Assembly: GCA_017962085.1 (NCBI GenBank)
Contig: JAGCWA010000011.1
Coordinates: 58,887 to 122,886 of the forward strand
Direction of reading: 5' to 3'
DNA length: 64,000 nt
Source of the DNA: Paludibacteraceae bacterium
GTDB taxonomy: Bacteria; Bacteroidota; Bacteroidia; Bacteroidales; Paludibacteraceae
The translations under genes were made by a program, and so were the position numbers. Under the pieces are notes generated by a model. That model searched no databases. It had not been told where the DNA came from and saw only the letters and a program-made list of their open reading frames with translations. Numbering within the stretch: position 1 is the stretch's first letter; each line of letters opens with the position of its first letter. Of this stretch, positions 27,703 to 40,393 are shown one piece after another.

Positions 27703-27742
27703 GAAAATGAAACCGCCCTGCCCAAAACATTTTCCAAACATA

Positions 27743-27776
27743 TGCCTCGTTTTGGCACATGTTACGCCTATATTTG
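27743..27776 (+). promoter_or_regulatory. Operator-promoter of the WYL-exonuclease operon (site C)
   Basis: Inverted repeat TGCC (27743-27746) - N7 - GGCA (27754-27757), then N3 and GTT, and exactly 11 nt after GGCA the -7 box TATATTTG (27769-27776). No TTTG box is at -33; the palindrome occupies that place. The same arrangement occurs at 40113-40146 and 38600-38633, both on the minus strand. Since WYL regulators commonly control their own promoter, this is probably the binding site of the next gene's product. Confidence 0.68.
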
Positions 27777-27794
27777 CAGAAAACAATTTGAATC

Positions 27795-28715
27795 ATGGCA
27801 AAGAGCGTAGCGAACAAATATGTGTGGCTGGTCGAAACCATCTACAATGCTGGTCGAATCACCTTTGATGAGATCAGCAGGAAGTGGGAGGAGACCGACT
27901 TGGGTGATGGGGGTCCTCTTGCCTTGCGCACTTTCCACAAATGGCGCGAGACAGCCGAAGAGATGTTCGACGTGAACATTGAGTGCGAGCGGAAGGGCGG
28001 CTACCACTACTACATCGACAACCCCGAAGACCTCAAGAAGAACAACCTGCGGACCTGGTTGCTGCAGACATTGTCGGTGAGCAATCTGATGATGGAGAAC
28101 CAAGCGTTGAAGGAGCGCATCCTGCCCGAAGAGATCCCTTCCGGCAAGGAGTTCCTATCGGTCATCCTGAATGCGATGAAGAACAACCACGCCCTCGAAA
28201 TGGCCTATAAAAGCTTCTGGCACATGCAAGAATACACGATTAGGGTCTATCCTTACTGCATCAAGTCATTCAAGCAACGTTGGTACATGTTGGCTAACCG
28301 AGGGACCTTGGAGGAACCGGTTCTGCGGACATATGCGCTCGACCGCATCTACAGCATCCAACCATTGCCCGACGAGACATTCCGGCTACCGGAGGATTTC
28401 GACGCACATGCCTACTTCGGGAACGTCTACGGAATCATCAACACGGGGAATGCGCCCCAGACCGTCCGTCTGAAGGTCTCCGTGGGCCAAGCGAACTACA
28501 TTCGCTCGCTACCGCTCCACAAAACGCAGAAGGAGGTTGAACGGACGGATGAATATAGTATCTTTGAACTCTGGCTCTGCCCCGAGCTCGATTTCCAACA
28601 GGAGATCCTGTCGAAGGCGCCGGACATCGAGGTGTTGGAGCCAGTGGATCTGCGCAACAGTTTGGCGGAAAAAGTAAACACAATGAATGATATATACAAA
28701 GGGAAAGCGATATGA
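27795..28715 (+). CDS. WYL-domain transcriptional regulator
   Basis: A 306-residue cytoplasmic regulator. The N-terminal about 70 residues read as a winged helix (YVWLVETIYNAGRITFDEISRKWEE, then ALRTFHKWRETAEEMF). The WYL domain follows at about 120-205 (ALEMAYKSFWHMQEYTIRVYPYCIKSFKQRWYML) with its expected tyrosines/arginine and the RTYALDRIYSI end. The C-terminal WCX-like extension (about 230-300) has the strand LKVSVGQANYIRSLPLH. WYL proteins sense nucleic acids or nucleotides and control DNA-damage or phage-defence genes. It overlaps the exonuclease gene by 4 nt and sits 18 nt after the -7 box of site C. Confidence 0.9.
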   Translation: MAKSVANKYVWLVETIYNAGRITFDEISRKWEETDLGDGGPLALRTFHKWRETAEEMFDVNIECERKGGYHYYIDNPEDLKKNNLRTWLLQTLSVSNLMMENQALKERILPEEIPSGKEFLSVILNAMKNNHALEMAYKSFWHMQEYTIRVYPYCIKSFKQRWYMLANRGTLEEPVLRTYALDRIYSIQPLPDETFRLPEDFDAHAYFGNVYGIINTGNAPQTVRLKVSVGQANYIRSLPLHKTQKEVERTDEYSIFELWLCPELDFQQEILSKAPDIEVLEPVDLRNSLAEKVNTMNDIYKGKAI

Positions 28716-29206
28716 AAGATTTTGCGGCAATAGACTTTGAGACAGCGAACAACGAGTCGACCTCGGTCTGCTCGGTGGGGGTGGTCATCGTACGGGATGG
28801 TGAGTTCGTCGACTCCTTCTACTCACTCATCCAGCCGGAACCGAACTACTACAACTATTGGTGCTCGCAGGTGAACGGTCTATGCAGGGAGGACACGGAC
28901 AATGCGCCTGTGTTCCCCAAGGTGTGGGCGCAGATCGAGCCGAAGATTCAGGGCTTGCCCCTCGTCGCCCACTACAAGGCCTTCGACGAGAAGTGCCTAC
29001 GAGCCGTGTTCCGCTGCTACCAGATGGACTACCCCGACTATGAGTTTTACTGCACCCACATCGCCGCCAAAAGATATTTTGGCAAGTCATTGCCCAACCA
29101 CCAGCTGCATGTGGTCGCCGAAGCCTGCGGTTACCATCTGGAGAACCACCACCACGCCCTGGCTGATGCCGAGGCCTGCGCTTGGATCGCTAGGGAGATT
29201 CTGTGA
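28712..29206 (+). CDS. DEDDh 3'-5' exonuclease (DnaQ/RNase T family)
   Basis: A 164-residue exonuclease of the DnaQ fold. Metal ligands are visible: Asp8 and Glu10 in AAIDFET, Asp92 in VAHYKAFDEKCL, and His147 with Asp152 in HHHALADAEA (DEDDh pattern). It has no other domain, so it is not the polymerase III epsilon partner. Its ATG overlaps the WYL stop (ATGA), so the two proteins are made together. A 3'-exonuclease tied to a WYL regulator suggests processing of damaged DNA or RNA ends. Confidence 0.9.
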   Translation: MKDFAAIDFETANNESTSVCSVGVVIVRDGEFVDSFYSLIQPEPNYYNYWCSQVNGLCREDTDNAPVFPKVWAQIEPKIQGLPLVAHYKAFDEKCLRAVFRCYQMDYPDYEFYCTHIAAKRYFGKSLPNHQLHVVAEACGYHLENHHHALADAEACAWIAREIL

Positions 29207-29281
29207 AATCCTTCGTCAATCGTTGGTGGATGCGTTGCATGAATTATTTCGGTGGGGGTATCTTGAACCAAATATAAATAT

Positions 29282-29289
29282 TACCTTTG
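29282..29289 (+). promoter_or_regulatory. -7 promoter element of the glycan cluster, 6 nt from the start codon
   Basis: TACCTTTG (29282-29289) ends 6 nt before the ATG at 29296, so the message would be nearly leaderless; TTG at 29263 is too close to be a standard -33. Confidence 0.5.
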
Positions 29290-29295
29290 TGGATA

Positions 29296-30579
29296 ATGAG
29301 AGAGACGATCGAATATATTATCCGCTTTCTGCTGCATGGCAACGACGACTTGCTGTGCCGTGTGGGGTATACCCGTGACACTGCATTGTTTTCGCAATAT
29401 GACGTGGTCATCCTTCCTTCGCCTTTCTTCGATGATGAGGTGTACGGGACTCCTCAGTCAGAGCCCGTGCTTCCCCTGCCTACCATAGGGGATACCCCCA
29501 TCCTATTCGGTTCGTCGACCACTGAACAAGTCGGCTCCACGAAGGTTGTCCATGCGGACCTCGTCGCAGGCGCCTACTTCCTCATCTCACGATACGAGGA
29601 GTACCTTCACCCTGACCGCCACCGCGACGCCCACGGAAGGTTCTTGGGCAAAGAGTCCTTGCCTTATCGGGCGGGCTTCCTCCTCCGTCCTATTTTGGAT
29701 GAGTATAGCCACCTGCTACTGACTTGGCTCTCCGAATCCGCCACCGTCTCCTTCCCTTCCTCAGGATATGAGCAGATATATCTCACACACGATATCGACA
29801 GGATCGCCTACTATCGTAACCCAAGAGGTTTCTTAGGCGGAATAAAAAGGAACCTAACCTCTTTCCCGGGACTGAAAAAGGTCCTCAAGGCTCCTCTCCG
29901 CTTGGAGAACGACCCTGCCTATACATTCCCTTGGATCATCGAAATGGATAGGAAGGTGAAGGGTGCGCAATCGGTCTATTTCGTAAAATCGGACATCCAC
30001 CAACATGCCAATGACCTCCCAAGCTACTCGCTCGCTGGGAAGGATTTCAAGAGGCTCTTCTCCCTTCTGAAAACAAACAATGTACGCTTCGGACTCCATA
30101 CGAGCTACTATGCGGGAGAGCACCCGGAGATTATTTCCCAAGAAAAAGAACAACTGGAGCGTTCGCTCAACCTCCCCATATCATTCAACCGTTGGCACTT
30201 CCTCCGCTCGTTGCAGCCCGCTGACTTCAACGCCCTGATAAACGCAGGCGTCAGCGACGACTTCACGCTGGGGTACGCCGACACCGTGGGCTTCCGCCTC
30301 GGCACTTCACGATGCGTGAGGTGGATCGACCCGAAAAGCAGGAAGGTGACCTCCCTTCGCCTCCACCCATTGGTGGCGATGGACTGCTCCCTCAGCAATA
30401 GCTACTACATGAACTTGACGGAGGATGAGGCGAAGAAGACGCTTCTCTCCCTTCTCTCTCAAATCAGGAAACACCACGGAGAGGTGGTACTGCTCTGGCA
30501 TAACACCGTCTTCTCGTCCGTAGAGGGAGGATATCATCCATCTTTATACCAAACAATCATCGAGGAATTAAACAAATGA
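29296..30579 (+). CDS. Polysaccharide deacetylase-like protein of a surface-glycan cluster
   Basis: A 427-residue cytoplasmic-looking protein. I start it at ATG 29296; a TTG at 29287 is possible. The N-terminal 140 residues are the DUF7033-like segment common before such domains (YRAGFLLRPILDEY). The deacetylase-type NodB fold follows, with its first metal-ligand motif YLTHDIDR at about 160. Further on are FGLHTSYYAGEHP (a possible histidine ligand), FNRWHFLR and, near the end, VVLLWHNTVF. It overlaps wecB by 4 nt and probably modifies an N-acetyl sugar of the same pathway; the substrate is inferred only. Confidence 0.8.
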   Translation: MRETIEYIIRFLLHGNDDLLCRVGYTRDTALFSQYDVVILPSPFFDDEVYGTPQSEPVLPLPTIGDTPILFGSSTTEQVGSTKVVHADLVAGAYFLISRYEEYLHPDRHRDAHGRFLGKESLPYRAGFLLRPILDEYSHLLLTWLSESATVSFPSSGYEQIYLTHDIDRIAYYRNPRGFLGGIKRNLTSFPGLKKVLKAPLRLENDPAYTFPWIIEMDRKVKGAQSVYFVKSDIHQHANDLPSYSLAGKDFKRLFSLLKTNNVRFGLHTSYYAGEHPEIISQEKEQLERSLNLPISFNRWHFLRSLQPADFNALINAGVSDDFTLGYADTVGFRLGTSRCVRWIDPKSRKVTSLRLHPLVAMDCSLSNSYYMNLTEDEAKKTLLSLLSQIRKHHGEVVLLWHNTVFSSVEGGYHPSLYQTIIEELNK

Positions 30580-31667
30580 AGATACTGACGATCATAGGTG
30601 CCCGCCCTCAATTCATCAAGGCGACTGTAGTGAGCAGAGCCATCCGCTTGCACAATGAGCGGCACGGAACCGCCATGGAGGAGAAGATCCTCCACACCGG
30701 CCAACACTACGACCATAACATGAGCCAGATATTCTTCAACGACCTCTCCATCCCTCGCCCGACATGGTTGCTGGATGGCTCCGCGACGGCTCCGCAACCT
30801 CTCTCCGAAAAGATTCTCAAGGCCATCGGTGACGAACATTTCGACTGCGTCATCCTCTACGGAGACACCAACTCCACCCTCGCCGGCGCATTGGCCGCGG
30901 AGAAGCGAAACATCCCCATCGCCCACATCGAGGCGGGCCTGAGGAGCTTCAACGACCGCATGCCCGAGGAGCACAACCGCATCGAGACGGACAAACGGTC
31001 CCACTGGCTTTTCTGCCCTACCCAGACTGCGGTCGATAATCTTCATAATGAACATATTACAAGCAACATACACTTGGTGGGGGATGTGATGTACGACACC
31101 GCCCTCCTCTTCGGGGAAACCGCGGAACGCTCTTCCGACGTCTGCGAAAGGCTGAATCTCCCCAAAAAGGGTTTCTACCTTGCGACGATCCATCGCGCGG
31201 AGAATATCTGCGAGGAGAACCTCTCCAACATCCTTTCCGCCTTCAACGAAATCGCCAGCCAGGAGCGAAGAATCGTCTTGCCGCTTCACCCTCATACCCG
31301 TTCCTTCATACAACAACACCCTAAGTTACAGGCGTTGTGCGATAAGAATGAATATCTAATGATCACGGAGCCAGCCAATTACCTCGATATGATCATGCTG
31401 GAGAAATCGGCCGCCCTTATCCTTACCGACTCTGGCGGTATCCAAAAGGAGGCCTACTTCCACAAGACGCCATGCGTCACTTTGCGGAACGAGACGGAGT
31501 GGATCGAGACCGTGGCGGCAGGCTGGAACATCCTTGCGGGAACGGACAGTGAGAGGATCAAGGAGGCGATCCACCACGATTTCAGCCGCCAACCCATCAA
31601 GGATTACGGGAGCGGTGACAGTGCGCAAAAAATCATTCAGGTGCTCTGCTCCGATTTCAACAAATAA
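30576..31667 (+). CDS. wecB: UDP-N-acetylglucosamine 2-epimerase (non-hydrolysing)
   Basis: WecB interconverts UDP-GlcNAc and UDP-ManNAc, the precursor for ManNAc-type surface polysaccharides. The 363-residue length is normal. Signatures: IGARPQFIKATVVSRAI at the N-terminus, LHTGQHYDHNMSQIFF, VILYGDTNST, HIEAGLRSFNDRMPEEHNRI, TIHRAEN, and DSGGIQKEAYFHKTPCVTLRNETEW at the UDP site. It follows the deacetylase-like gene with an ATGA overlap and is followed 30 nt later by a glycosyltransferase, giving a three-gene surface-glycan unit. Confidence 0.95.
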   Translation: MKILTIIGARPQFIKATVVSRAIRLHNERHGTAMEEKILHTGQHYDHNMSQIFFNDLSIPRPTWLLDGSATAPQPLSEKILKAIGDEHFDCVILYGDTNSTLAGALAAEKRNIPIAHIEAGLRSFNDRMPEEHNRIETDKRSHWLFCPTQTAVDNLHNEHITSNIHLVGDVMYDTALLFGETAERSSDVCERLNLPKKGFYLATIHRAENICEENLSNILSAFNEIASQERRIVLPLHPHTRSFIQQHPKLQALCDKNEYLMITEPANYLDMIMLEKSAALILTDSGGIQKEAYFHKTPCVTLRNETEWIETVAAGWNILAGTDSERIKEAIHHDFSRQPIKDYGSGDSAQKIIQVLCSDFNK

Positions 31668-31669
31668 AC

Positions 31670-31677
31670 TATTTTTG
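31670..31677 (+). promoter_or_regulatory. -7 promoter element of the glycosyltransferase gene
   Basis: TATTTTTG overlapping the gap right after wecB, 20 nt before the glycosyltransferase start; could give it its own transcript. Confidence 0.5.
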
Positions 31678-31697
31678 CGTTCAGATAGTATCGAGCC

Positions 31698-32897
31698 ATG
31701 GCAAAGAGAATATTGATCGTATGTGACGCTTTCCCCCCTGATTTCGCCCCCCGCATAGGCAATCTATGCAAGCATCTGCGGGCGGATTTTGAGGTGACGG
31801 TCATCACAAGAGCCTCGACGAAGACCTCTTGGCCGATCCATATCGACCGTGAAAACATGGTCCTCCATACCATCCCCCTGACCTCCGACAAACCATGGAT
31901 CCAAACATTGCAAACGGCTGGCGATTACCTCTTCAGCCGTAGCGACCGCAAACTCTATAGGGAGGCCATGCGCCGCATCCAGGGGGAACGCTTCGACCTC
32001 GTCTTCTGCACCAGCTACTACATCTTCCCGTTGCTTTGCGGAAAGAAGATCGCGCAACGTCTTCATATCCCTTTGCTCGTCGATCTAAGGGATATCATGG
32101 AGCAGAACGCCCGTCCGCATGGGTTGGAAAAGATCAGGCAGTTCTTCAAGCTCCGCTGGCTCAACCAGTGGCGGCGCGACAGGGTACTCCGCAAGGCGCA
32201 GTTCGTGACGACGGTCTCCCCTTGGCACGTGAAGACGCTGCGGAAGATCCAGCCCAACGTCGAACTGGTCTTCAACGGCTACGACCGTGACCTCTTCTCC
32301 TTCCAGCCTATCCCTTCCGATAAATTCGCCATCACCTATATCGGCAGGCTGCTCGACCTGAGCCTCCGGGACCCCAGCCTTCTATTTCAGGCGGTGCGTG
32401 ACCTCGTAGCGGATAAAGCGTTCGCCAACGACCTCGTTCTCCGCTGGTATGTGGACAATGATAGCAAGGCGGACGTGGAAACGATGGCGCAGGCCTATGG
32501 CGTCACGGCCTACAACGAGGTACATGGCACCATCTCCGCCGATAAGATGCCGGAGGTGCTCAACCGCTCCTCCATTGCGTTGGTACTCTCCAACAAGGCG
32601 ACGGCGGACGGTCCACATGGCATCATGACGACCAAGTTCTACGAAGCGTTAGGCTGTGAGAAGCCTGTGCTTTGCGTACGCAGCGACGAAGATTGCCTTG
32701 CCGAAACCATCCAGAAGACCCGCGCGGGCATCGCCGCCTCCACCGTCGAAGAGGTGAAGTCCTTCCTCCTCGACAACTACCGTCAGTGGAAAGAATACGG
32801 ATATACGCACCAGAAGGTAGACCTGGCGCAAAAAGAGTTATTCACGCGACAGGCGCAGGCAAAACAGTTCGAGACCCTCATAATTCATAATTCTTAA
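31698..32897 (+). CDS. Glycosyltransferase, GT-B fold (GT4-like)
   Basis: A 399-residue GT-B glycosyltransferase. The N-terminal Rossmann lobe starts RILIVCDAFPPDFAPRIGNLCKHL. The linker QFVTTVSPWHVKTLRKI leads to VFNGYDRDLF, the usual GT4 turn between lobes. The C-terminal lobe includes AITYIGRLLDL, and near the end MTTKFYEALGCEKPVLCVRSDED matches the donor-binding E-x7-E region. It should transfer a nucleotide-activated sugar to a growing surface glycan, following wecB in the same direction. Donor and acceptor are unknown. Confidence 0.88.
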   Translation: MAKRILIVCDAFPPDFAPRIGNLCKHLRADFEVTVITRASTKTSWPIHIDRENMVLHTIPLTSDKPWIQTLQTAGDYLFSRSDRKLYREAMRRIQGERFDLVFCTSYYIFPLLCGKKIAQRLHIPLLVDLRDIMEQNARPHGLEKIRQFFKLRWLNQWRRDRVLRKAQFVTTVSPWHVKTLRKIQPNVELVFNGYDRDLFSFQPIPSDKFAITYIGRLLDLSLRDPSLLFQAVRDLVADKAFANDLVLRWYVDNDSKADVETMAQAYGVTAYNEVHGTISADKMPEVLNRSSIALVLSNKATADGPHGIMTTKFYEALGCEKPVLCVRSDEDCLAETIQKTRAGIAASTVEEVKSFLLDNYRQWKEYGYTHQKVDLAQKELFTRQAQAKQFETLIIHNS

Positions 32898-32935
32898 TTG
32901 ACTTCGTCGAACTGACGTTTCATAATTCTCATTAT
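32878..32935. repeat. AATTCATAATTC-type intergenic repeat
   Basis: Repeated words CATAATTC (three times) surround a TTGACTTCGTCGAACTGACG core. This style of AT-rich intergenic filler is common in Bacteroidales; a weaker relative (CTCTTAACCTCTAATTCTTAA) sits at about 17460-17485. It has no coding content. It overlaps the last codons of the glycosyltransferase. Confidence 0.4.
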
Positions 32936-33076
32936 TCCCCCAAAAAAATGTGGTAAAAGGTAAAATATTCCCCAATAAAAATGTAAAAATTGCTTGTACT
33001 TTGCTAAAAATGAGTGTATTAAAAATCCTTCGTCATTTGGTGCATTTTCTCCTTATTTTTGGAGCCTATTTGATTG

Positions 33077-33163
33077 AAAATTCGCAACACTACTGCGAAT
33101 TTTCAATGAAAATATGCAATACTACTGCGAATTTTTAATCTTTTTTTCAGATAATTTCATGCG
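33077..33163 (+). repeat. Left flanking repeat of the DUF4143 ATPase cassette
   Basis: Direct repeat of the block at 34307-34392. The first 44 nt are identical, and similarity continues with a few changes and a 1-nt indel to the ATGCG word. The core is AAAATTCGCA-N7-TGCGAATTTT, a 10-bp perfect inverted repeat, followed by a second, partial one. The right end overlaps the last codons of the ATPase gene. Read on the minus strand, the palindrome lies just after the stop codon and could serve as a terminator. Confidence 0.85.
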
Positions 33164-34280
33164 CCCACAGCTTTTGGAAGAAGTCGGTGACGTGCAGAAG
33201 TTCGATGCCATCGACGGTGCGGTTGAAACGGTCGAGCGACACGAGGATGCGTCGGCAGTCCGGGTACTCGTCGCCAAAGGACTTCAACCCTTTCAGATGC
33301 TTAGGCAGAGCCTCCTCTGCGGATTTTATCTCCACCGCTACCTTCGCATCCCCTAAGATCACATCCACTTCCACTTGTGTGTAGGTACGCCAATAGGAGA
33401 GTTTATTTGGGTTGTCGGTGTAGCTTAGGTACGCCACGAGTTCTTGCACCACGAGATGTTCGAACGCATGTCCGTACTCCGTCGTACCCCGTCGCAAATG
33501 CGTGCGTCCCAGCAGGTAATTGGTGACGCCCACGTCGAAGAGGTAAAAACGTGGCGCCTGCACCACCTTGCGTTTGGCTTTGCGTGTGAAGGCGGGAATC
33601 ATATAGCCCACGAGCGTATCCTCCAGGATTTGGAAATACTCCTTCACGGTGTTGGCGCTCACACCGCAGTCTGACGCGATATTCAGGTAATTGACCATTT
33701 CACCGTCGGTCATTGCGGCGATTTCCAGGAATCGGGAAAACCCGGCGAGGTTGCGCACCAGCGATTCTGCCTGGATCTCCTCGCGCAGGTAGATGCCCAC
33801 GTAAGCCTTCAACAGATTGCTGGGGTTCTCCTTCAGGTAATGGCGAGGAATCATGCCATTGTTTACCGCTCGGTCGATGTCGAAATCGGGCACTTCGCAG
33901 CTCACGAAAGGGAACAGGTACTGAGGCACAGCCCGTCCACCCAATGTGTTCACGCCCTGTCGTTTCAGTTTCCTCGCACTCGAGCCACACAATATGAAAC
34001 GCAGATGCCGGTTGGTTATCAACCAATGTATCTCGTTGAGGAGGGCGGGCACCTGTTGAATCTCGTCGATGATGACCAACTGACCTTCATTGGCTGTTTC
34101 GAGTGTCTCGCGTAGCAGGGCGGGGCGTTGGCGGAAACGGTTCAGCACGTCGGTCTGAAGCAGGTCGTAGTAGATGGCGCCGGGGAACCGGGTCATCAAC
34201 ATGGTCGTTTTCCCTGTTTGGCGTGCACCGAACAGAAATACGCTTTCATCGTCTATAATTTGCAAAACTCGCTCGTTCAT
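33147..34280 (-). CDS. DUF4143 AAA ATPase with C-terminal PD-(D/E)xK-like nuclease fold
   Basis: A 377-residue protein. The P-loop ATPase domain (about 10-170) has Walker A GARQTGKT at 18-25 and Walker B LVIIDEIQ at about 68-75. A helical DNA-binding-like linker follows (AAMTDGEMVNYLNIASDCGVS, residues about 185-215). The DUF4143 part shows a nuclease-like arrangement in YTQVEVDVILGDAKVAVEIKS (E/D then E-x-K). The family is abundant and poorly understood; roles in toxin-antitoxin or phage defence have been suggested. It is flanked on both sides by near-identical palindromic repeats and has a -7 box 17 nt before the start. Confidence 0.88.
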   Translation of the reverse strand: MNERVLQIIDDESVFLFGARQTGKTTMLMTRFPGAIYYDLLQTDVLNRFRQRPALLRETLETANEGQLVIIDEIQQVPALLNEIHWLITNRHLRFILCGSSARKLKRQGVNTLGGRAVPQYLFPFVSCEVPDFDIDRAVNNGMIPRHYLKENPSNLLKAYVGIYLREEIQAESLVRNLAGFSRFLEIAAMTDGEMVNYLNIASDCGVSANTVKEYFQILEDTLVGYMIPAFTRKAKRKVVQAPRFYLFDVGVTNYLLGRTHLRRGTTEYGHAFEHLVVQELVAYLSYTDNPNKLSYWRTYTQVEVDVILGDAKVAVEIKSAEEALPKHLKGLKSFGDEYPDCRRILVSLDRFNRTVDGIELLHVTDFFQKLWAHEII

Positions 34281-34296
34281 AGTGTTTTATTTTTTG

Positions 34297-34304
34297 CAAA
34301 TATA
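34297..34304 (-). promoter_or_regulatory. -7 promoter element of the DUF4143 ATPase gene
   Basis: TATATTTG on the minus strand, 17 nt before the ATG. The flanking palindrome begins 2 nt upstream of it, so a protein on the palindrome would block or steer polymerase; autoregulation is plausible. Confidence 0.65.
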
Positions 34305-34306
34305 TA

Positions 34307-34392
34307 AAAATTCGCAACACTACTGCGAATTTTCAATGAAAATATGCAATGCCACTGCGAATTTTCAACCTTTTTTCGGACGATTTGATGCG
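34307..34392 (+). repeat. Right flanking repeat of the DUF4143 ATPase cassette
   Basis: Direct repeat partner of 33077-33163, 1230 bp away, with 44 identical bases at the start. It contains the AAAATTCGCA-N7-TGCGAATTTT inverted repeat plus a second partial copy (ATGCAAT..TGCGAATTTT). It fills the gap between the ATPase promoter and the end of the PLD gene. Confidence 0.85.
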
Positions 34393-34429
34393 TGTGGCGA
34401 CGCTAAACTTCCCTATTTTCTCCTAAGAA

Positions 34430-34942
34430 TCACACGATAGGATCTGAGCAGAACTCTTTCCGTTTGCACGTTTTGCAGTGTTTGCCCATCCATACTTCAT
34501 CAAACTGGTTCATGGCCTGTTCGACGATTTGAGGGTCGTCGGTCAGGATCCCGGCCTCGAAGTTGCGTGTTGTTTCGGCTTTCATTCCGACGCCCGCCCC
34601 TGTGAGGTTCGCGCTTCCCACGTAAACCTCTTTGCAGTCGAAGACGAACATCTTGAAATGAACCCTTGGGCACAGCACTCGCTCCAGCCGGCTAAACAGC
34701 ACAGGGTATTTATCAAAATCCTCACGGAAGTTCGGTCCCGGCTCTTTCGCATGGATAAGCCTTATCTCTACGCCACGCCGGATGAGTGCGGCAAGCAGAG
34801 CCAGAAACGGTTTCTTCTCTTTGCCCATCTCCACATAGAGGTCTTTGATATCGGCAGTGCCAATCCATAGCGTGTGCTTCACGGATTGGATGCGGGAGAG
34901 GAGGGCGGTGTAGTGGGTGGTGTTAGGGATGTAGTGAATCAT
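34430..34942 (-). CDS. Phospholipase D-like nuclease, third gene of the McrBC operon
   Basis: A 170-residue protein with one HKD half-site: His95-x-Lys97-x4-Asp102, then the supporting GSANLTG (Ser110, Asn112). Single-HKD proteins of this size act as dimeric DNA nucleases such as BfiI or Nuc. The last 15 residues carry three cysteines (156, 159, 165; CKTCKRKEFC), a likely zinc site for DNA binding. It overlaps mcrC by 20 nt on the same strand, so it is made from the same message. A separate nuclease attached to McrBC is unusual. Confidence 0.86.
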   Translation of the reverse strand: MIHYIPNTTHYTALLSRIQSVKHTLWIGTADIKDLYVEMGKEKKPFLALLAALIRRGVEIRLIHAKEPGPNFREDFDKYPVLFSRLERVLCPRVHFKMFVFDCKEVYVGSANLTGAGVGMKAETTRNFEAGILTDDPQIVEQAMNQFDEVWMGKHCKTCKRKEFCSDPIV

Positions 34943-36344
34943 TGGACAAAATATTTTTTATGGATTCGGTTAATGATTCTTCAACGCCTTTCATTTCTTC
35001 CCGAAACTCATTCATTTTATCTTTAACAGGAATTTTTAAACCATATCCACAAATTTCACCTTTATATCCCAATAATTTTCTTGAATTGGATTTAATCACT
35101 TTGTTATTCTGATTAGTTTTTTCGTTAGGTTCTATAGGATATAGTAATGCACAATGTTTTGCTGGAAGAACATACATATATGTGATCATCTGAAACAAAT
35201 CGTCATGGCAAATAGAAATTCTATTCAAGGTAGGACTATCTTCCCCATCATTATTAACATCACTTCCCAAACGTTTGTATTTTGCATCTAATACAAAAGA
35301 CTTTTCTCCTTGTTCATCACCTTCCACTGCTTTGTAAAAATCAGGGTAATAAGATTTTTTCCCATTTTCGTACAATGCTATTCCGTTTTCCTCAGTTTTA
35401 TTTTTTGCGTGAGTTATATCGAGGTGTTTCTCTTCAAAAATTGAATTCAAATACTCCTCCCACAACCATGCGCCATCGAATAGAATTCCATAGACTTTAT
35501 CCTTCTCCTGCCCATACTTAAGGGATTCGTGGCGAAGGATCTGCAGGCAAATTTTTTGCAGTTCTGTATAGGCCGAGAAGTAGGGATGCCTGACGGGGCG
35601 GAGGTTCTGGTTGATGACCTTCTGACGCTCCCGGACGTTATAGGTTTGCGTGGCCATAACGATTTGGCTGACAGCCTCTTTCGTCTCTTTGTTATTGCTT
35701 AGAATGTGTGCGCCATGGGCTTTCGTCTTGATGTACTCTATCGTGTGACGAATCAGCTGTGTCACCTCGTTGTCGTAGCTATGTTCCCTTGTGGAATAGG
35801 CCACGGTGCCTCGAAAAGGAATGTTTTGGCGGATATGTCGGCTCACATCAATCGGTCCACGGATGTTGGCGTCGTTGTACTCAAACCGACGGTACTTTTT
35901 GTAGAGACCTTGCCCCAACGCCTTTTGCAGGAAGAGGGGAAAAAGATAGAGCAAGAAATCGAACACCTGTTCTTTGTCGGTGGTGTGTTTGATGTCGAAC
36001 AAGTTGATAGCGAACACTCTCTGCAACATGTAGTGCAAGAAATAGTCGTTCTCATCCTCTCTCACGAATCGTGAACGGATATCTATCTGTGTGTCGTTGA
36101 CCCCGACGAAGCCCATGATGTTGCCCGTAATGATTTGGTCGCCCTGCAATTCGATAATACGGCCTTCGCTAATATCGTCGCCATAGTGATTCAAATCACG
36201 GGGGAAGACCAAAAGATTAGGACGATCGTCAAGCTTCAGTTTGCCTATGGGGAGGTTGGCGATTCGCTCGATGTCCGGGCGGGCGATTTGCTCGTCGTCG
36301 GTCAACTTATGACTTGTATTATCCGTTATTTGAATCTGAGCCAT
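34923..36344 (-). CDS. McrC-family (LlaJI-type) restriction subunit
   Basis: A 473-residue McrC-like protein, the nuclease partner of the McrB GTPase in type IV (modification-dependent) restriction. The N-terminal part has the McrC beta-strand block (ITGNIMGFVGVNDTQIDIRSRF), the helical middle contains LWEEYL at about 294-299, and the PD-(D/E)xK nuclease core follows: Pro334-Asp335 in SYYPDFY, then Asp353-Ala-Lys355 in FVLDAKYKRL. The gene overlaps mcrB by 26 nt and the PLD gene by 20 nt. Base composition is clearly more AT-rich than the chromosome around it, which fits horizontal gain. Confidence 0.88.
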   Translation of the reverse strand: MAQIQITDNTSHKLTDDEQIARPDIERIANLPIGKLKLDDRPNLLVFPRDLNHYGDDISEGRIIELQGDQIITGNIMGFVGVNDTQIDIRSRFVREDENDYFLHYMLQRVFAINLFDIKHTTDKEQVFDFLLYLFPLFLQKALGQGLYKKYRRFEYNDANIRGPIDVSRHIRQNIPFRGTVAYSTREHSYDNEVTQLIRHTIEYIKTKAHGAHILSNNKETKEAVSQIVMATQTYNVRERQKVINQNLRPVRHPYFSAYTELQKICLQILRHESLKYGQEKDKVYGILFDGAWLWEEYLNSIFEEKHLDITHAKNKTEENGIALYENGKKSYYPDFYKAVEGDEQGEKSFVLDAKYKRLGSDVNNDGEDSPTLNRISICHDDLFQMITYMYVLPAKHCALLYPIEPNEKTNQNNKVIKSNSRKLLGYKGEICGYGLKIPVKDKMNEFREEMKGVEESLTESIKNILSNDSLHP

Positions 36345-38370
36345 TAGTGGTAGTGTTGTTTGAATCGTAAGCCCTTTTTAGTTTGTTCATACTATCCTCT
36401 ACACCCTGCATTCCTCGTAGATATTCGAACAAAAGACCCTTGAGGTGATATTTCCACAAATCATCAAATGAATTATTGTCATATTTGCCATTGTTGCTTT
36501 TATAATTTTTCAGTTTCAAGAAATAACTTGCACCAATATGGTAGGCGGAAGAAAGTCCCTCTATACATTTATCCTCTTCTTTTTCATTCTCTTTCTCTTC
36601 ATGCCAAATCATCTTATTGAGGCTTTCCATCTTGCCTTTTATGAGTTTAATTGTCTCATCATCTGGCTTCAATGAATTTCCATTGCTGTCTTTCCATGCA
36701 TCTTCATTATCAAGCATTTCTTGAGAATCTTCGTCAGTAACCTCCTTAAAGGCGAATCTCCTACGGAAGGCAAAATCCATGCTTTCCACGCTACGGTCAA
36801 TATCGTTCATGGTGCCGATGATATAGACGTTTTCGGGGACGAAGAACCATCCATAGTTGTCACTTTCTTTAATACCCAAAGCATCATCAAAATCGTTTGG
36901 TTCTTCCTGCATATTCGCATATTGTGTTTTAACCTTGCCATCTTTCCCACGATATCCGGGATCAATTGAAAAGAATAGTTCGCCAAAAATTTTGCTTATC
37001 TCGCCACGATTGATTTCATCAATGATTATCACATATTTCTTATTTGGATTTCTTAGTGCAGTACTGCATAAGGCTTTGAAAACTCCATCTTTTCGTTCAA
37101 AGCTAACATTACCATTATCTTCTCGTTTAGGTCTCAATCCCTCTACAAAATCAGTATAATCATATGATGGATGGAATTGTACTAGCTTATAGTCCCCATT
37201 TGTTTTTATTTCACCGCCTTCTCCTATAACTTCCCCATCGTTAATGTTGAAATTTTCATAAAGTATATGCATAAAATCAAAAGGTGATATGTCTTTATCT
37301 TTGCAATGTTCCTTATAAAAGTTGTATATGGCCTTGTTCCTCTCGAAAATATTATTGCTATTGCAGTCGATTCCAAATAGAGATATAATATTATCAATAT
37401 GTTCTTTGCTGTTGATTGGAACGTATTCATTTGGATAATAGCTATTAAGCACTTTGAGTATGAATGATTTCCCGAATTTCTCAGAATAAGGTTCTGGGTC
37501 ATTGTCATTTACCATCTTATGTAAGTCGTTTGCAAGAACTTTTATAAGAGCTTCAGGTTCTTGTCCTAATTTTTTCAAATAGCCTGTTACTTTATAATCT
37601 GAGAGTTCTTTGTTCCAATACAATAGATAGGTGTTAGATGATCCTGGGAAATAGGAACCAAGCGGTTTTAATTTACGTTCGATCCAATAACAGAAATTAT
37701 CTTTGTTTTGTTTCCCAATGCAGTAATCGTCTAGAGTCATCTCCTTTAGCTTTTCCTTTGGAAACCGATATTGGAAACTATCTAATAGATTTTTTTCGTC
37801 AGAACCATTATGTTCATACTTGTTAATAGCTGATTCTAGAACCTCAATAGGGCGTAAAGTCTTTTTTTGCGATACGATTTGCTCTGCAATTTCTTTTGCT
37901 AAATAGGTTTTACCTGTTCCGGGTGCGCCGGTGAGAATAATATTGCGAGAATTAATCAGTAATTTTAAAATAGAATTCATATTTTGTTTGGTTTTTATTT
38001 TCCTGTATAATGTGTCGATTTGCCTTTTAATATCAATGTCTTGTATTTTTCGTATTCCTTGGACTAGTTTATACTCAAATTGATCGGATTCTTCAAGTTC
38101 ATAGATTATACTCTTTGCTACATAAACGCAATCTTCGTAATCAATTCCATATGAAGAAAATTCATTTTCAAGTTCTGGAATACTTGTTACGACTTGTTTG
38201 TCTTCTAATATCTCAGCTAATGCGATAACATTAAATCCTCGAGAGATAGCAACTATGTCACCAACAGATGCATCATCGACACATATTAAAAAAGAGTGCG
38301 TCTTTAATAACTCATAGTAGTCGCGGTTTCCTTTCCCCCAATATTTACAGCCTAATTTCCAATAATTCAT
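36319..38370 (-). CDS. McrB-family GTPase/AAA+ restriction subunit with N-terminal PUA/EVE-like domain
   Basis: A 683-residue AAA+ motor. Residues 1-60 (NYWKLGCKYWGKGNRDYYELL, then VGDIVAISRGFNVIALAEIL) look like an EVE/PUA-type reader of modified bases. The motor has Walker A GAPGTGKT at 148-155, a long insert of about 290 residues, the family Walker B IIIDEINRGE (Asp451, Glu452), sensor IIGTMNDIDRS at about 517-526 and the arginine-rich FAFRRRFAF at about 533-541. It is the first gene of the operon with mcrC and the PLD nuclease. A TTG-N20-TATATTTG promoter lies 45 nt upstream. Very AT-rich. Confidence 0.88.
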   Translation of the reverse strand: MNYWKLGCKYWGKGNRDYYELLKTHSFLICVDDASVGDIVAISRGFNVIALAEILEDKQVVTSIPELENEFSSYGIDYEDCVYVAKSIIYELEESDQFEYKLVQGIRKIQDIDIKRQIDTLYRKIKTKQNMNSILKLLINSRNIILTGAPGTGKTYLAKEIAEQIVSQKKTLRPIEVLESAINKYEHNGSDEKNLLDSFQYRFPKEKLKEMTLDDYCIGKQNKDNFCYWIERKLKPLGSYFPGSSNTYLLYWNKELSDYKVTGYLKKLGQEPEALIKVLANDLHKMVNDNDPEPYSEKFGKSFILKVLNSYYPNEYVPINSKEHIDNIISLFGIDCNSNNIFERNKAIYNFYKEHCKDKDISPFDFMHILYENFNINDGEVIGEGGEIKTNGDYKLVQFHPSYDYTDFVEGLRPKREDNGNVSFERKDGVFKALCSTALRNPNKKYVIIIDEINRGEISKIFGELFFSIDPGYRGKDGKVKTQYANMQEEPNDFDDALGIKESDNYGWFFVPENVYIIGTMNDIDRSVESMDFAFRRRFAFKEVTDEDSQEMLDNEDAWKDSNGNSLKPDDETIKLIKGKMESLNKMIWHEEKENEKEEDKCIEGLSSAYHIGASYFLKLKNYKSNNGKYDNNSFDDLWKYHLKGLLFEYLRGMQGVEDSMNKLKRAYDSNNTTTNGSDSNNG

Positions 38371-38400
38371 TTTTCTTTCTATTTAGTTCTAATTCACAAA

Positions 38401-38574
38401 CTATATATTCCCTCCAAATATATCCAAAACAATCAATCCCCACAACTCATAGTTAAAACTTTTTTTCACCACTTTTCCCTTTTTTCTCTGAGTTGTCAAG
38501 TATTCCTTGACAGTTGCCTCTTCTTCAAACACACCTTCTTTGATGATTCGATTATCCTGTTTTTGCCGTCGTTG
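38401..38574 (-). pseudogene. RhuM-family-like gene fragment
   Basis: An open stretch of 57 codons with no start codon (in-frame stop just before it at 38575). It reads RQKQDNRIIKEGVFEEEATV, then KEYLTTQRKKGKVVKKSF, then loses similarity. The pattern EG-x-x-E-x-x-ATV-x-x-x-x-T-x-Q is what I remember from the middle of virulence RhuM-type proteins, which are normally about 300 residues. The rest of the gene is gone. The right part of the fragment now holds the mcrB promoter. A homology search is needed; confidence is moderate at best. Confidence 0.42.
38415..38445 (-). promoter_or_regulatory. Bacteroidota promoter of the mcrB-mcrC-PLD operon
   Basis: On the minus strand TTG (38443-38445), 20-nt spacer, TATATTTG (38415-38422), 45 nt before the mcrB start. 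Confidence 0.72.
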
Positions 38575-38599
38575 TTAGATTTAATTGTTCGTTTGCCAG

Positions 38600-38633
38600 C
38601 AAAATAAAGCACAACCTACGCCATATCACGGCA
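38600..38633 (-). promoter_or_regulatory. WYL-type operator-promoter, site B (upstream of RhuM relic and mcrB)
   Basis: Minus strand: TGCC-N7-GGCG (38619-38633), N3, GTT, and 11 nt after the palindrome the -7-like box TTATTTTG (38600-38607). It shares 22 of 27 bases with site A around the palindrome. A transcript from here would cross the RhuM relic and then enter mcrB, so it could be a second promoter of the restriction operon or the old promoter of the lost gene. The 400-nt gap between mcrB and the AAA+ gene contains this site, the relic and the mcrB promoter. Confidence 0.6.
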
Positions 38634-38770
38634 CAAGTTGGAGAAAATCATATCCAATTTTTTAAAAAATAAAGAGCAAAAACCAGCCCGTTTTTAATAA
38701 AAAGTAGAGCTAAAGCCGATAAACGTTCATAACGCATTAGGCCTATTCCCCCACGGAGACCTCGACTCCA

Positions 38771-40057
38771 TCATATCGCGAATCCGATGCAGGTGCTTCT
38801 CTTTCTCTCCAACCACTCATTTTCGCAATGCTGAACCAGGGAATCGAACGAAGTGGAGTCCTCGCCGTTCAGGATACCGTCAATGGCATGTCGGCGGGCG
38901 ATGTTCTCAATCTGTCCGCCACTGAACTCGTATCGGGTAGCCAAGATGCGGATGTCGCTTTCATCCAACATCGGAAGCATACTTTGCCAAATGCTCATAC
39001 GGGCTTCAACCGTAGGTTTCTCAAACCTGACTTTGTAAAGGAATCTACGTTCAAAAGCCTTATCCATGTTCTGTACCAAGTTGGTCGTGGCGATCAGGAT
39101 ACCGTCGAACGTCTCCATCTCCTGCAGGATGATGTTCTGGATGGAGTTCTCCATTTTATCGACGGCTCTCTCCGCACCCTCCTGACGTTTGCCGATAATC
39201 GCATCCGCTTCATTGAAAAGCAGGATGGGCGTGATGTCAGAATCCTTCACCTTCCTCCTATAATCATCAAAGACTTGCTTGATGTTCTTCTCACTCTCGC
39301 CTACCCACATACTCTTTATCTGTGAGATGTTGACCTGCAGAATGTCACGTCCTGTTCGCTTCGCCAGTTGAAGGACAGTCTCTGTCTTTCCCGTGCCTGG
39401 ATCTCCATAGAAAAGGCATGTGAACCCGCAGCGAAACCCCTTCTCCTGCATTCGTTGATGGACAATCCTGTATTGTTCCCGATCCAAAAGTTGCTTCAGT
39501 TCTTTTATTTGTGAATCAATCTCCGTGTCATAGAAAAGTTCCTTGCCGATGATTTCCTCGTGTTTGATGATGTTTTTCTCATCACTTTCCAACTCGCTAT
39601 CGCTTAACACATCACCACAGAGTTCGTTAATGGTTTTTTGAGAAACACGGTAGGTACGGGTACAGCAATATCTCTCTTCACAGCGATAAATTATGCCTCG
39701 CTTCTCCAACTCGTCAATATCATTCAAATAACGCAAGAAGGCTATCGTACTACAACCACATTTTTCAGCAATAGTATCAATGCTAATGTGGGACGAAAAA
39801 CACTCAGAGGCGAAAAGAACAAACAATGCACTTTGCCTCATGGTTAGATTCATCTTCATGGAGATAAATCTAAGGGGTTTTTCTGCCACCTCGAAGAACC
39901 CTTTGCTCAAAGATGAATTTTCTAAAAGCTTGTCTACCTGACACACGGCCGAGATCAAATCCATCCCTTTGAATGTATCCTCATTGTCCTCACAAACCTC
40001 CACTAAGTCCAAACGACTTTTGAGGAGTTCTATACATTCCAATGTTTCCTTTTTCAT
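38771..40057 (-). CDS. AAA+ ATPase with N-terminal winged-helix-like region
   Basis: A 428-residue protein from ATG 40057 (MKKETLECIELL); the open frame runs further up but through the promoter. The N-terminal 150 residues are helical, with a wHTH-like part (QSALFVLFASECF, SIDTIAEKCGCSTIAFLRYLNDIDELEKRGII). The AAA+ core has Walker A GDPGTGKT at 218-225 and Walker B-like ILLFNEAD at about 278-285, with Asn in place of the first Asp. Sensor LIATTNL is at about 321-327 and the arginine finger in FERRFLYKVRF at about 335. This is a FtsH/FIGNL-type clade of unknown role. It has a site-A operator upstream, shared with the WYL operon. Confidence 0.82.
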   Translation of the reverse strand: MKKETLECIELLKSRLDLVEVCEDNEDTFKGMDLISAVCQVDKLLENSSLSKGFFEVAEKPLRFISMKMNLTMRQSALFVLFASECFSSHISIDTIAEKCGCSTIAFLRYLNDIDELEKRGIIYRCEERYCCTRTYRVSQKTINELCGDVLSDSELESDEKNIIKHEEIIGKELFYDTEIDSQIKELKQLLDREQYRIVHQRMQEKGFRCGFTCLFYGDPGTGKTETVLQLAKRTGRDILQVNISQIKSMWVGESEKNIKQVFDDYRRKVKDSDITPILLFNEADAIIGKRQEGAERAVDKMENSIQNIILQEMETFDGILIATTNLVQNMDKAFERRFLYKVRFEKPTVEARMSIWQSMLPMLDESDIRILATRYEFSGGQIENIARRHAIDGILNGEDSTSFDSLVQHCENEWLERKRSTCIGFAI

Positions 40058-40112
40058 ATGATGACACAAATGGTTATGAAGATGCACTAATTGGCAACTA
40101 GAATGATGAGGG

Positions 40113-40146
40113 CAAAGAAAAAAACAACCTATGCCAAATGATGGCA
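40113..40146 (-). promoter_or_regulatory. WYL-type operator-promoter of the AAA+ ATPase gene (site A)
   Basis: Minus strand: TGCC-N7-GGCA (40132-40146), N3, GTT, and 11 nt after GGCA the -7-like box TTTCTTTG (40113-40120), 56 nt before the AAA+ start codon. Spacing and flanking bases match site C before the WYL gene and site B at 38.6 kb. There is no -33 TTTG. Confidence 0.66.
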
Positions 40147-40225
40147 CAGGATGAAAAAAATGTTATGTTAATAAAAATATAAGATCGCGCCACTTAATAA
40201 TATCTGAATTTGTGTGATCTACCAA

Positions 40226-40345
40226 TCACACCCTCTCCAACACCCTATGAAACTCCGGTGCCAGTACATGCACGATGCCGTTTCTGTTGGGACGTTGGAA
40301 CTTATCTAGGGTTACGACAAATTTGGGGTAGTTTCTATCATAACC
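40226..40345 (-). pseudogene. C-terminal relic of a second DUF4143-type ATPase
   Basis: Forty codons on the minus strand ending in TGA read GYDRNYPKFVVTLDKF, then NGIVHVLAPEFHRVLERV. This aligns by eye with the end of the intact DUF4143 ATPase at 33147 (DEYPDCRRILVSLDRF, then DGIELLHVTDF): Y-P, LD-x-F and GI-x-x-L recur in order. Everything upstream of the C-terminus is missing; the frame runs straight into the palindromic repeats at 40330-40393, so an internal deletion probably joined repeat and gene tail. Confidence 0.6.
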
Positions 40346-40393
40346 GAAACTTTACTGGAAAATTCAAAAAGTTTCTATTATAACCGAAACTTT
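40330..40393 (+). repeat. Tandem palindromic repeat beside the DUF4143 relic
   Basis: Two 24-nt direct copies, AGTTTCTAT-Y-ATAACCGAAACTTT (40330-40353 and 40370-40393; one base differs), start 40 nt apart. Each is an inverted repeat AGTTTC-N10-GAAACT, extended to AAAAGTTTC/GAAACTTTT in the second. The layout (paired palindromes beside a DUF4143 ATPase) is the same as at 34307-34392, though the bases differ. The rest of the 432-nt gap 40058-40489 holds site A and the relic. Confidence 0.8.

Follow-up and report, generated by a model that had tools for sequence, protein, structure and literature searches.

A DriD-like operator-promoter, probably under WYL control, ahead of exonuclease, AAA+ ATPase and McrBC genes in a Paludibacteraceae bacterium

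Among the described regulators with a WYL domain, DriD, PafBC, BrxR and CapW come closest to the system reported here. The two DNA-binding domains of DriD flank the -35 element, the palindrome lying over this element in promoters with poor elements, and all sites are equidistant from weak -10 elements (preprint PMC12340889, which also assigns the structures 7tzv, 9pfq, 9pfv and 9pga to DriD). Its targets include the exonuclease gene recJ and the division inhibitor didA, and a site is found ahead of driD itself. PafBC is a mycobacterial activator working by sigma adaptation, which is activated by single-stranded DNA and replaces -35 recognition via a -26 motif; it is a heterodimer, with one helix-turn-helix (HTH) on the -26 motif and the other contacting sigma (PMC11804915). 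BrxR and CapW are dimeric repressors of defence operons (BREX and CBASS) with palindromic sites (PMC9122601, PMC9122588). We analyzed a stretch of 64,000 nucleotides from a gut-dwelling Paludibacteraceae bacterium (GenBank GCA_017962085.1, contig JAGCWA010000011.1, positions 58,887 to 122,886), called the window throughout, in which the core TGCC-N7-GGCR with a -7-like box at fixed distance occurs at three sites: A ahead of a WYL regulator-exonuclease operon, B ahead of an AAA+ ATPase gene, and C upstream of mcrBC. What the sequences show directly are the sites with their phase and conservation, a linkage with WYL genes and a lost -33 box. The feature is probably a DriD-like promoter controlled by WYL proteins, for which we infer binding, activation, ligand and the assignment of regulators to sites.

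The three sites had been proposed in an earlier note made from the sequence alone. A check of the sequence agreed with their coordinates (Table 1) and with the distance of exactly 11 nucleotides (nt) between the core and a TnnnTTTG box in all of them. Exact matches to TGCC-N7-GGCR-N15-TTTG occur three times in the window, at A, B and C, where 0.02 are expected, and none of 100 shuffles reached this number. A finer pattern, TGCC-N7-GGCR-N-A-N-GTT-N9-TTTG, was built from the three sites themselves and has its sole exact matches there within the 3.37-Mb genome. The entire palindrome comprises 27 bp with the outer arms AACAT/ATGTT (A), ATCCT/AGGTT (B) and AACTT/AGGTT (C). Sites A and B share 18 of the 27 palindrome positions, and not 22 as had been counted earlier, and 21 of the 34 positions from TGCC to TTTG; for B and C the identities are 21 of 27 and 26 of 34. 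Without the box, the core TGCC-N7-GGCR has 13 strand-matches in the window (3.34 expected), spread over 8 places, and the five places apart from A, B and C all lie within large open reading frames (ORFs). These five occurrences could be taken to indicate that the three sequences resemble each other by chance. This explanation has next to no probability and was rejected on the basis of the expectation for core plus box, the conservation across species and the counts in related loci given below.

WYL orthologues in relatives were identified by protein, and the upstream DNA was read in gene orientation. Of 45 WYL loci, including that of the window, 20 possess a core with at least seven of eight positions within 160 nt upstream, and TTTG follows at a gap of exactly 11 in 17 of these 20, at a gap of 12 in two and as a degenerate box in one. 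For a selection-free survey 80 loci of named assemblies (1.32 Mb, mostly metagenome-assembled genomes of rumen or gut Bacteroidales) were retrieved solely by means of the WYL alignment. They contain 81 matches to TGCC-N7-GGCR-N11-TnnnTTTG, 67 of them distinct, whereas the reversed pattern gave none. Gaps of 5-10 and 12-17 resulted in 0-3 matches each and spacers of 4-6 and 8-10 in 0-1, with gap counts used as evidence from protein-selected loci only and a gap table from partly pattern-chosen loci set aside. At least one match was present in 42 of the 80 loci. All 71 distinct 40-mers share the orientation of the WYL gene, and 60 follow its start. Related loci share ancestry, and the count after collapsing at 80% identity, 23 clusters, is given here beside the raw one; the overlap between genome set and named records (e.g., L216, L220, L231, L232, L234) was removed solely by collapsing identical sequences, and gene calls are uncurated longest-ATG ORFs. 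The pattern is concentrated around WYL genes.

The 428-amino-acid (aa) AAA+ gene is present in seven of 15 same-genus genomes, and all seven orthologues have retained the operator, six of them in the same position (-90 relative to the ATG, with CGCC instead of TGCC in two), and G005 at -646 with two small ORFs intervening. The proposal of a WYL operator-promoter is therefore supported by a core and an 11-nt phase kept ahead of WYL as well as AAA+ orthologues. In a scan of 350 genomes with a stricter pattern, 78 matches in 38 genomes were detected (reversed control: 7). A WYL relative at E<=1e-40 was found in 34 of the 38 site-bearing genomes vs 162 of the 312 others (Fisher p 4e-6). Some of the observations weigh against this reading: of the 78 named WYL loci whose upstream DNA is long enough, 52 have no 7-of-8 core ahead of WYL, and of the 26 which have it, 21 carry the box at gap 11 and five do not. 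Furthermore, some WYL loci have variant cores in their own promoters, e.g., TGCA-N7-TGCA, whose arms are similar and whose phase is unchanged, and four of the 38 site-bearing genomes (G003, G231, G261 and G359; 88, 83, 84, and 70% complete) are without a WYL protein at E<=1e-40. Apart from these exceptions, the motif withstood the refuting condition set in the earlier note, a lack of the motif at orthologous loci.

The palindrome was said to replace the -33 box, and the comparison with other promoters is in agreement with this. With the canonical -33 and -7 boxes taken from PMC7366714, TTG was found 19 or 20 nt upstream of the box in two of 90 sites vs 73 of 246 control TAnnTTTG promoters of the same loci, defined by sequence rather than by mapping (p 2e-9). 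The TGCC end of the operator excludes TTG at spacing 20; part of the missing -33 box is thereby forced, which has to be counted against our reading, and the same exclusion implies that the palindrome occupies the place of the -33 box. For the outer arms of the 90 distinct sites, which all come from loci chosen by protein, 401 of 540 positions are complementary, compared with 299 +- 11 after re-pairing. The commonest arms, AAGGT/ACCTT, GACCT/AGGTC, AACCT/AGGTT and AACAT/ATGTT, differ from each other and are each palindromic. Palindromes of this type could also be regarded as intrinsic terminators of the upstream genes with an incidental TTTG box, as several sites, e.g., site B, have T-rich DNA behind arms capable of hairpin formation, and in 55 of 87 cases a co-directional stop codon precedes the site by no more than 100 nt. 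A terminator, however, has no need of a fixed TGCC-N7-GGCR or of TTTG at a distance of 11 nt. The nearest upstream stop is more than 200 nt away in 21 of the 87 sites and absent within 2 kb in three more, and the core of site A lies 207 nt past the end of the preceding ORF. We consider a pure terminator function very improbable, while a double role as terminator and promoter is possible.

The kinship of the window's WYL protein points in the same direction as the promoter layout. Its profile matched the PDB entries of DriD with E values of 4.9e-13 (7tzv) and 2.1e-12 (9pfq), entries which the PDB itself names just 'WYL domain-containing protein', and PafBC with 6.5e-13, in contrast to 0.014 for CapW and 0.39 for BrxR. 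The match to DriD spans profile positions 118-292 of 300, that is the C-terminal WYL-WCX half, and the DNA-binding half did not align. With DriD the system shares, in addition to this half, the palindrome over the upstream promoter element, the fixed distance to the downstream one, the poor promoter elements, an exonuclease among the targets and a site ahead of the regulator's own gene. It is distinguished from DriD by another operator, another phylum, -33/-7 promoters, many variable defence cargos and several WYL paralogues with different arms. PafBC likewise has WYL-WCX domains and acts in place of -35 recognition, but it reads the -26 motif as a heterodimer and not a 27-bp palindrome, and the window operon contains one WYL gene with a single WYL domain, neither a fusion nor a pair.

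A repressor of the BrxR/CapW kind, with a dimer over the -33 position and the spacer blocking RNA polymerase until a ligand releases it, has to be weighed at this point. These repressors are also WYL regulators beside defence genes with palindromic sites, the BrxR box spans 27 bp as well, and, to the disadvantage of our interpretation, the operator covers much of the promoter's upstream half and could occlude the polymerase. However, CapW sites overlap the -10 element, and R-BOX1, the better-studied of the BrxR boxes, follows the BrxR promoter, with the second box upstream of another promoter, whereas at A, B, C and the 67 distinct matches the core ends 11 nt short of the -7 box. In addition, a promoter that has lost its -33 box would remain poor once derepressed, and the profile matches DriD and PafBC. 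Repression thus appears unlikely. Because the layout is DriD-like and the profile closest to DriD and PafBC, as had been suggested earlier in preference to BrxR and CapW, the activator is favoured by analogy and sequence. According to this model, a WYL dimer would bind the 27-bp palindrome, the centre of which lies some 19 nt ahead of the -7 box and thus on the -33 position, where the promoter has lost its own consensus. Once its WYL domain is triggered, with single-stranded nucleic acid arising from damage or from replicating phage as the probable signal, the dimer would recruit RNA polymerase at a fixed phase. Site A would serve autoregulation of the WYL-exonuclease operon, while B (with the AAA+ ATPase) and C (formerly with a RhuM cargo, now with McrBC-PLD) would belong to the same promoter family and most likely be controlled by a second WYL protein.

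This second protein is encoded by one of two further WYL paralogues in the genome, at C50:14907-15803 (52% identical to the window's protein, with its own operator); the other one, G000:C18:64275-65156, is 37% identical, and no site was found in the 11.8 kb surrounding it. The earlier note had proposed that the window's own WYL protein switches all three loci. In favour of such a single regulator are the identical inner core and phase and the short stretch of 12.4 kb that holds all three sites. However, AACAT-type arms with a TTTG box occur in the genome, with up to two mismatches, solely at site A (the other match of the scan being its reverse strand), and sites with CCT-type arms also precede the AAA+ paralogue and occupy a second position on C50. 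In the WYL tree the C50 type belongs to a clade of 20 rows (support 100/100), in which 18 of 19 own sites have CCT-type left arms, L020 being different. The putative recognition helix has the sequence RTFHKW in WYL proteins of the window type, as opposed to RTFENW in those of the C50 type. Whole operators scored 25.6 bits with an A-type matrix vs 18.9 with a C50-type matrix for site A, 18.0 vs 38.7 for B and 18.3 vs 29.1 for C, where the A-type matrix comprises five operators whose WYL proteins are not one clade and the C50-type matrix 19 operators.

A protein search in 15 same-genus relatives detected no WYL protein of the window type (best full-length identity 52%). Of the seven genomes carrying the AAA+ gene with its site, four encode a member of the C50-type clade, G014 has WYL pieces only, and no close WYL protein was found in the remaining two, which are 88-89% complete. 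As A-type arms are unique, the matrices separate the sites and the AAA+ operator is kept without a window-type WYL, B and C are, judging from these sequence comparisons, probably targets of the C50-type WYL on another contig, and control of all three sites by the window's WYL alone is rather doubtful. Several points count against this assignment: the AACAT arms occur at five own sites outside the C50-type clade which form no single WYL clade, the arms of site C alone do not separate the types (12.0 vs 12.1 bits), and mcrB has a second promoter besides site C. This canonical promoter between site C and mcrB renders control of mcrBC by site C uncertain.

The same promoter precedes a large variety of genes in related Bacteroidales. 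Behind 170 distinct sites 157 downstream genes were recorded, comprising 27 WYL genes, 24 AAA+ genes of the same family, a cluster of seven around DnaE-like genes (three of them encoding 815-820 aa), three McrB-like genes and many others. This census includes relaxed cores (six of eight positions with a near-perfect palindrome) and mixes protein-chosen with pattern-chosen loci; cargo genes were named by Pfam or NCBIfam and are given in Table 1. Several of the cargos are cut-down copies of replication and division genes, with sizes compared as open-frame lengths. DnaA of 471-478 aa occurs beside a copy of 251-293 aa in two of three genomes, the third having the long form only, and FtsZ of 392-741 aa beside a copy of 221-255 aa in three of four, the fourth having the short form only. 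In all four genomes considered for DnaE, the protein of 1274-1331 aa is accompanied by a copy of 803-826 aa. Two aligned short FtsZ copies keep GGGCGTG and end ahead of the second half. PDIDID is kept in three of four short DnaE copies (not in L090). In the alignment with a housekeeping copy, which has 1336 columns, column 932 is the last one for three of the four, and the last residue of the 819-aa copy of L188 was placed at the alignment end. Genes similar to DUF6557 were also observed recurrently behind the operator (L228:11561-11980, L224:12540-13562) in two clusters of five, one match being sub-cut-off; DUF6557 is named in no paper of the open-licence PMC literature.

LexA (TIGR00498) gave no match in the window's genome and none over the cut-off in 21 genomes, weaker and mostly C-terminal matches below the cut-off being present in six of the 21. 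The system resembles the LexA/SOS response as a dispersed regulon which joins DNA-processing genes with possible division control, and differs from it in the regulator, the operator and the apparent mode as activator. A response run by WYL proteins could take the place of SOS, and the shared promoter ahead of defence genes and cut-down replication and division genes looks like a coordinated emergency response. As the same promoter heads many separate defence and replication/division cassettes, the window probably represents one branch of a dispersed stress-and-defence regulon. We tentatively suggest, as a speculative extension, that in LexA-less Bacteroidales an SOS-like 'halt and defend' regulon is under the control of WYL activators, with one operator-promoter and interchangeable cassettes, namely nucleases, restriction, CRISPR and domain-only copies of DnaA, DnaE, GyrB, FtsZ and FtsK. 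Once induced, the cut-down copies might block replication and division, be it the host's own or phage-hijacked, or they might act as decoys for phage inhibitors. For LexA-less Bacteroidota the regulon would bear on how DNA damage response and phage defence are coordinated. The motif with its core, spacer and phase is sharp, so that the regulon can be searched in any genome and new defence genes be predicted from the promoter alone, and one kind of switch would tie together CRISPR, restriction, nucleases and truncated replication and division proteins. Searches of the open-licence PMC literature, at the level of titles and abstract starts, listed no description of operator, regulon or cassette set.

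Table 1. Sites and genes of the window (plain positions) and cargo genes in related loci (L numbers).
Feature	Position	Strand	Basis or remark
Site A, TGCC to TTTG	27743-27776	+	sequence pattern
Site A, 27-bp operator AACATATGCC-N7-GGCACATGTT	27737..27763	+	predicted from sequence
Site A, -7 box TATATTTG	27769..27776	+	11 nt past palindrome core
WYL regulator, 306 aa	27795..28715	+	Pfam WYL 3.4e-11, WCX 2e-8; winged HTH from predicted model
DEDDh 3'-5' exonuclease, 164 aa	28712..29206	+	Pfam Rv2179c-like 1.6e-16, RNase_T 1.2e-13
PLD-family nuclease, 170 aa	34430..34942	-	Pfam PLDc_2 3.7e-15
McrC, 473 aa	34923..36344	-	Pfam McrBC 1.9e-55
McrB-like AAA protein, 683 aa	36319..38370	-	Pfam AAA_5 9.6e-17
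Second canonical promoter TTG-N20-TATATTTG	38415..38445	-	between site C and mcrB
RhuM relic, 33-residue match	38449..38547 (about)	-	tblastn E 2.5e-6
Site C, TGCC to TTTG	38600-38633	-	sequence pattern
Site C, 27-bp operator AACTTGTGCC-N7-GGCGTAGGTT	38613..38639	-	predicted from sequence
Site C, -7 box TTATTTTG	38600..38607	-	
AAA+ ATPase, 428 aa from ATG	38771..40057	-	Pfam AAA 2.5e-25; PADLOC IetA-like 7.9e-31
Site B, TGCC to TTTG	40113-40146	-	sequence pattern
Site B, 27-bp operator ATCCTGTGCC-N7-GGCATAGGTT	40126..40152	-	C50-type by matrix
Site B, -7 box TTTCTTTG	40113..40120	-	
Type I CRISPR operon, Cas6 then Cas3 gene	L146:5034-9922		behind site
Type V CRISPR operon, Cas12a-Cas4-Cas1-Cas2	L172:1215-7084		behind site
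GmrSD	L083		behind site
HIRAN	L163		behind site
YhcG nuclease	L162		behind site
FtsZ GTPase domain	L076 (14186-14881), L139, L180		behind site
FtsK motor	L157, L206		behind site
DnaA ATPase domain	L207:15932-16687		behind site
DnaB	L210		behind site
Partial DnaE copy	L188:16151-18610		behind site
GyrB ATPase part	L199:2474-3607		271 nt behind site
RtcB	L247		relaxed site
PD-(D/E)XK	L226		relaxed site
DEDDh exonuclease	L145, L174		with own site

The AlphaFold2 model of the window's WYL protein (mean pLDDT 85) has three N-terminal helices and two strands, and Pfam reported no HTH match for this protein. The exonuclease gene overlaps the WYL gene by 4 nt. A DEDDh exonuclease downstream of WYL on the same strand was found in 52 of the 80 named WYL loci, in 47 of them within 300 nt. 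The ATG of the AAA+ ATPase lies 55 nt past the box of site B. For the set of WYL, exonuclease and AAA+ genes PADLOC returned no named system, the matches being WYL, Cas3c, DEDDh, the candidate PDC-S48 and IetA/TRIP13-like.

The RhuM relic upstream of mcrBC, which had been noticed earlier, is real, although its size is restricted to the short match listed in Table 1; it is a probable remnant of an earlier cargo gene behind site C. A counterpart of site C, AACCTGTGCC-N7-GGCGTAGGTT, stands ahead of an mcrB-like gene in G001. A 38-nt stretch containing the second promoter recurs in L083 between the site of that locus and the GmrSD gene, and its position ahead of McrB here and of GmrSD there fits an exchange of cargo behind a kept leader. 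The McrB-like protein clusters with two further McrB-like genes behind the same type of site, and the PLD nuclease is 73-85% identical to seven PLD genes within WYL islands. An AAA_14/DUF4143 ATPase gene at 33147-34280 adjoins the McrBC-PLD genes, and in L081 a 445-aa ORF which looks similar to it is situated between the AAA+ and McrB genes. A 20-bp inverted-repeat motif GTTTCTAT(C/T)ATAACCGAAAC is present in two copies 40 nt apart (40331-40350 and 40371-40390), with four strand-matches vs 0.06 expected for a pattern taken from the copies themselves; the two copies are possibly an operator pair of another regulator.

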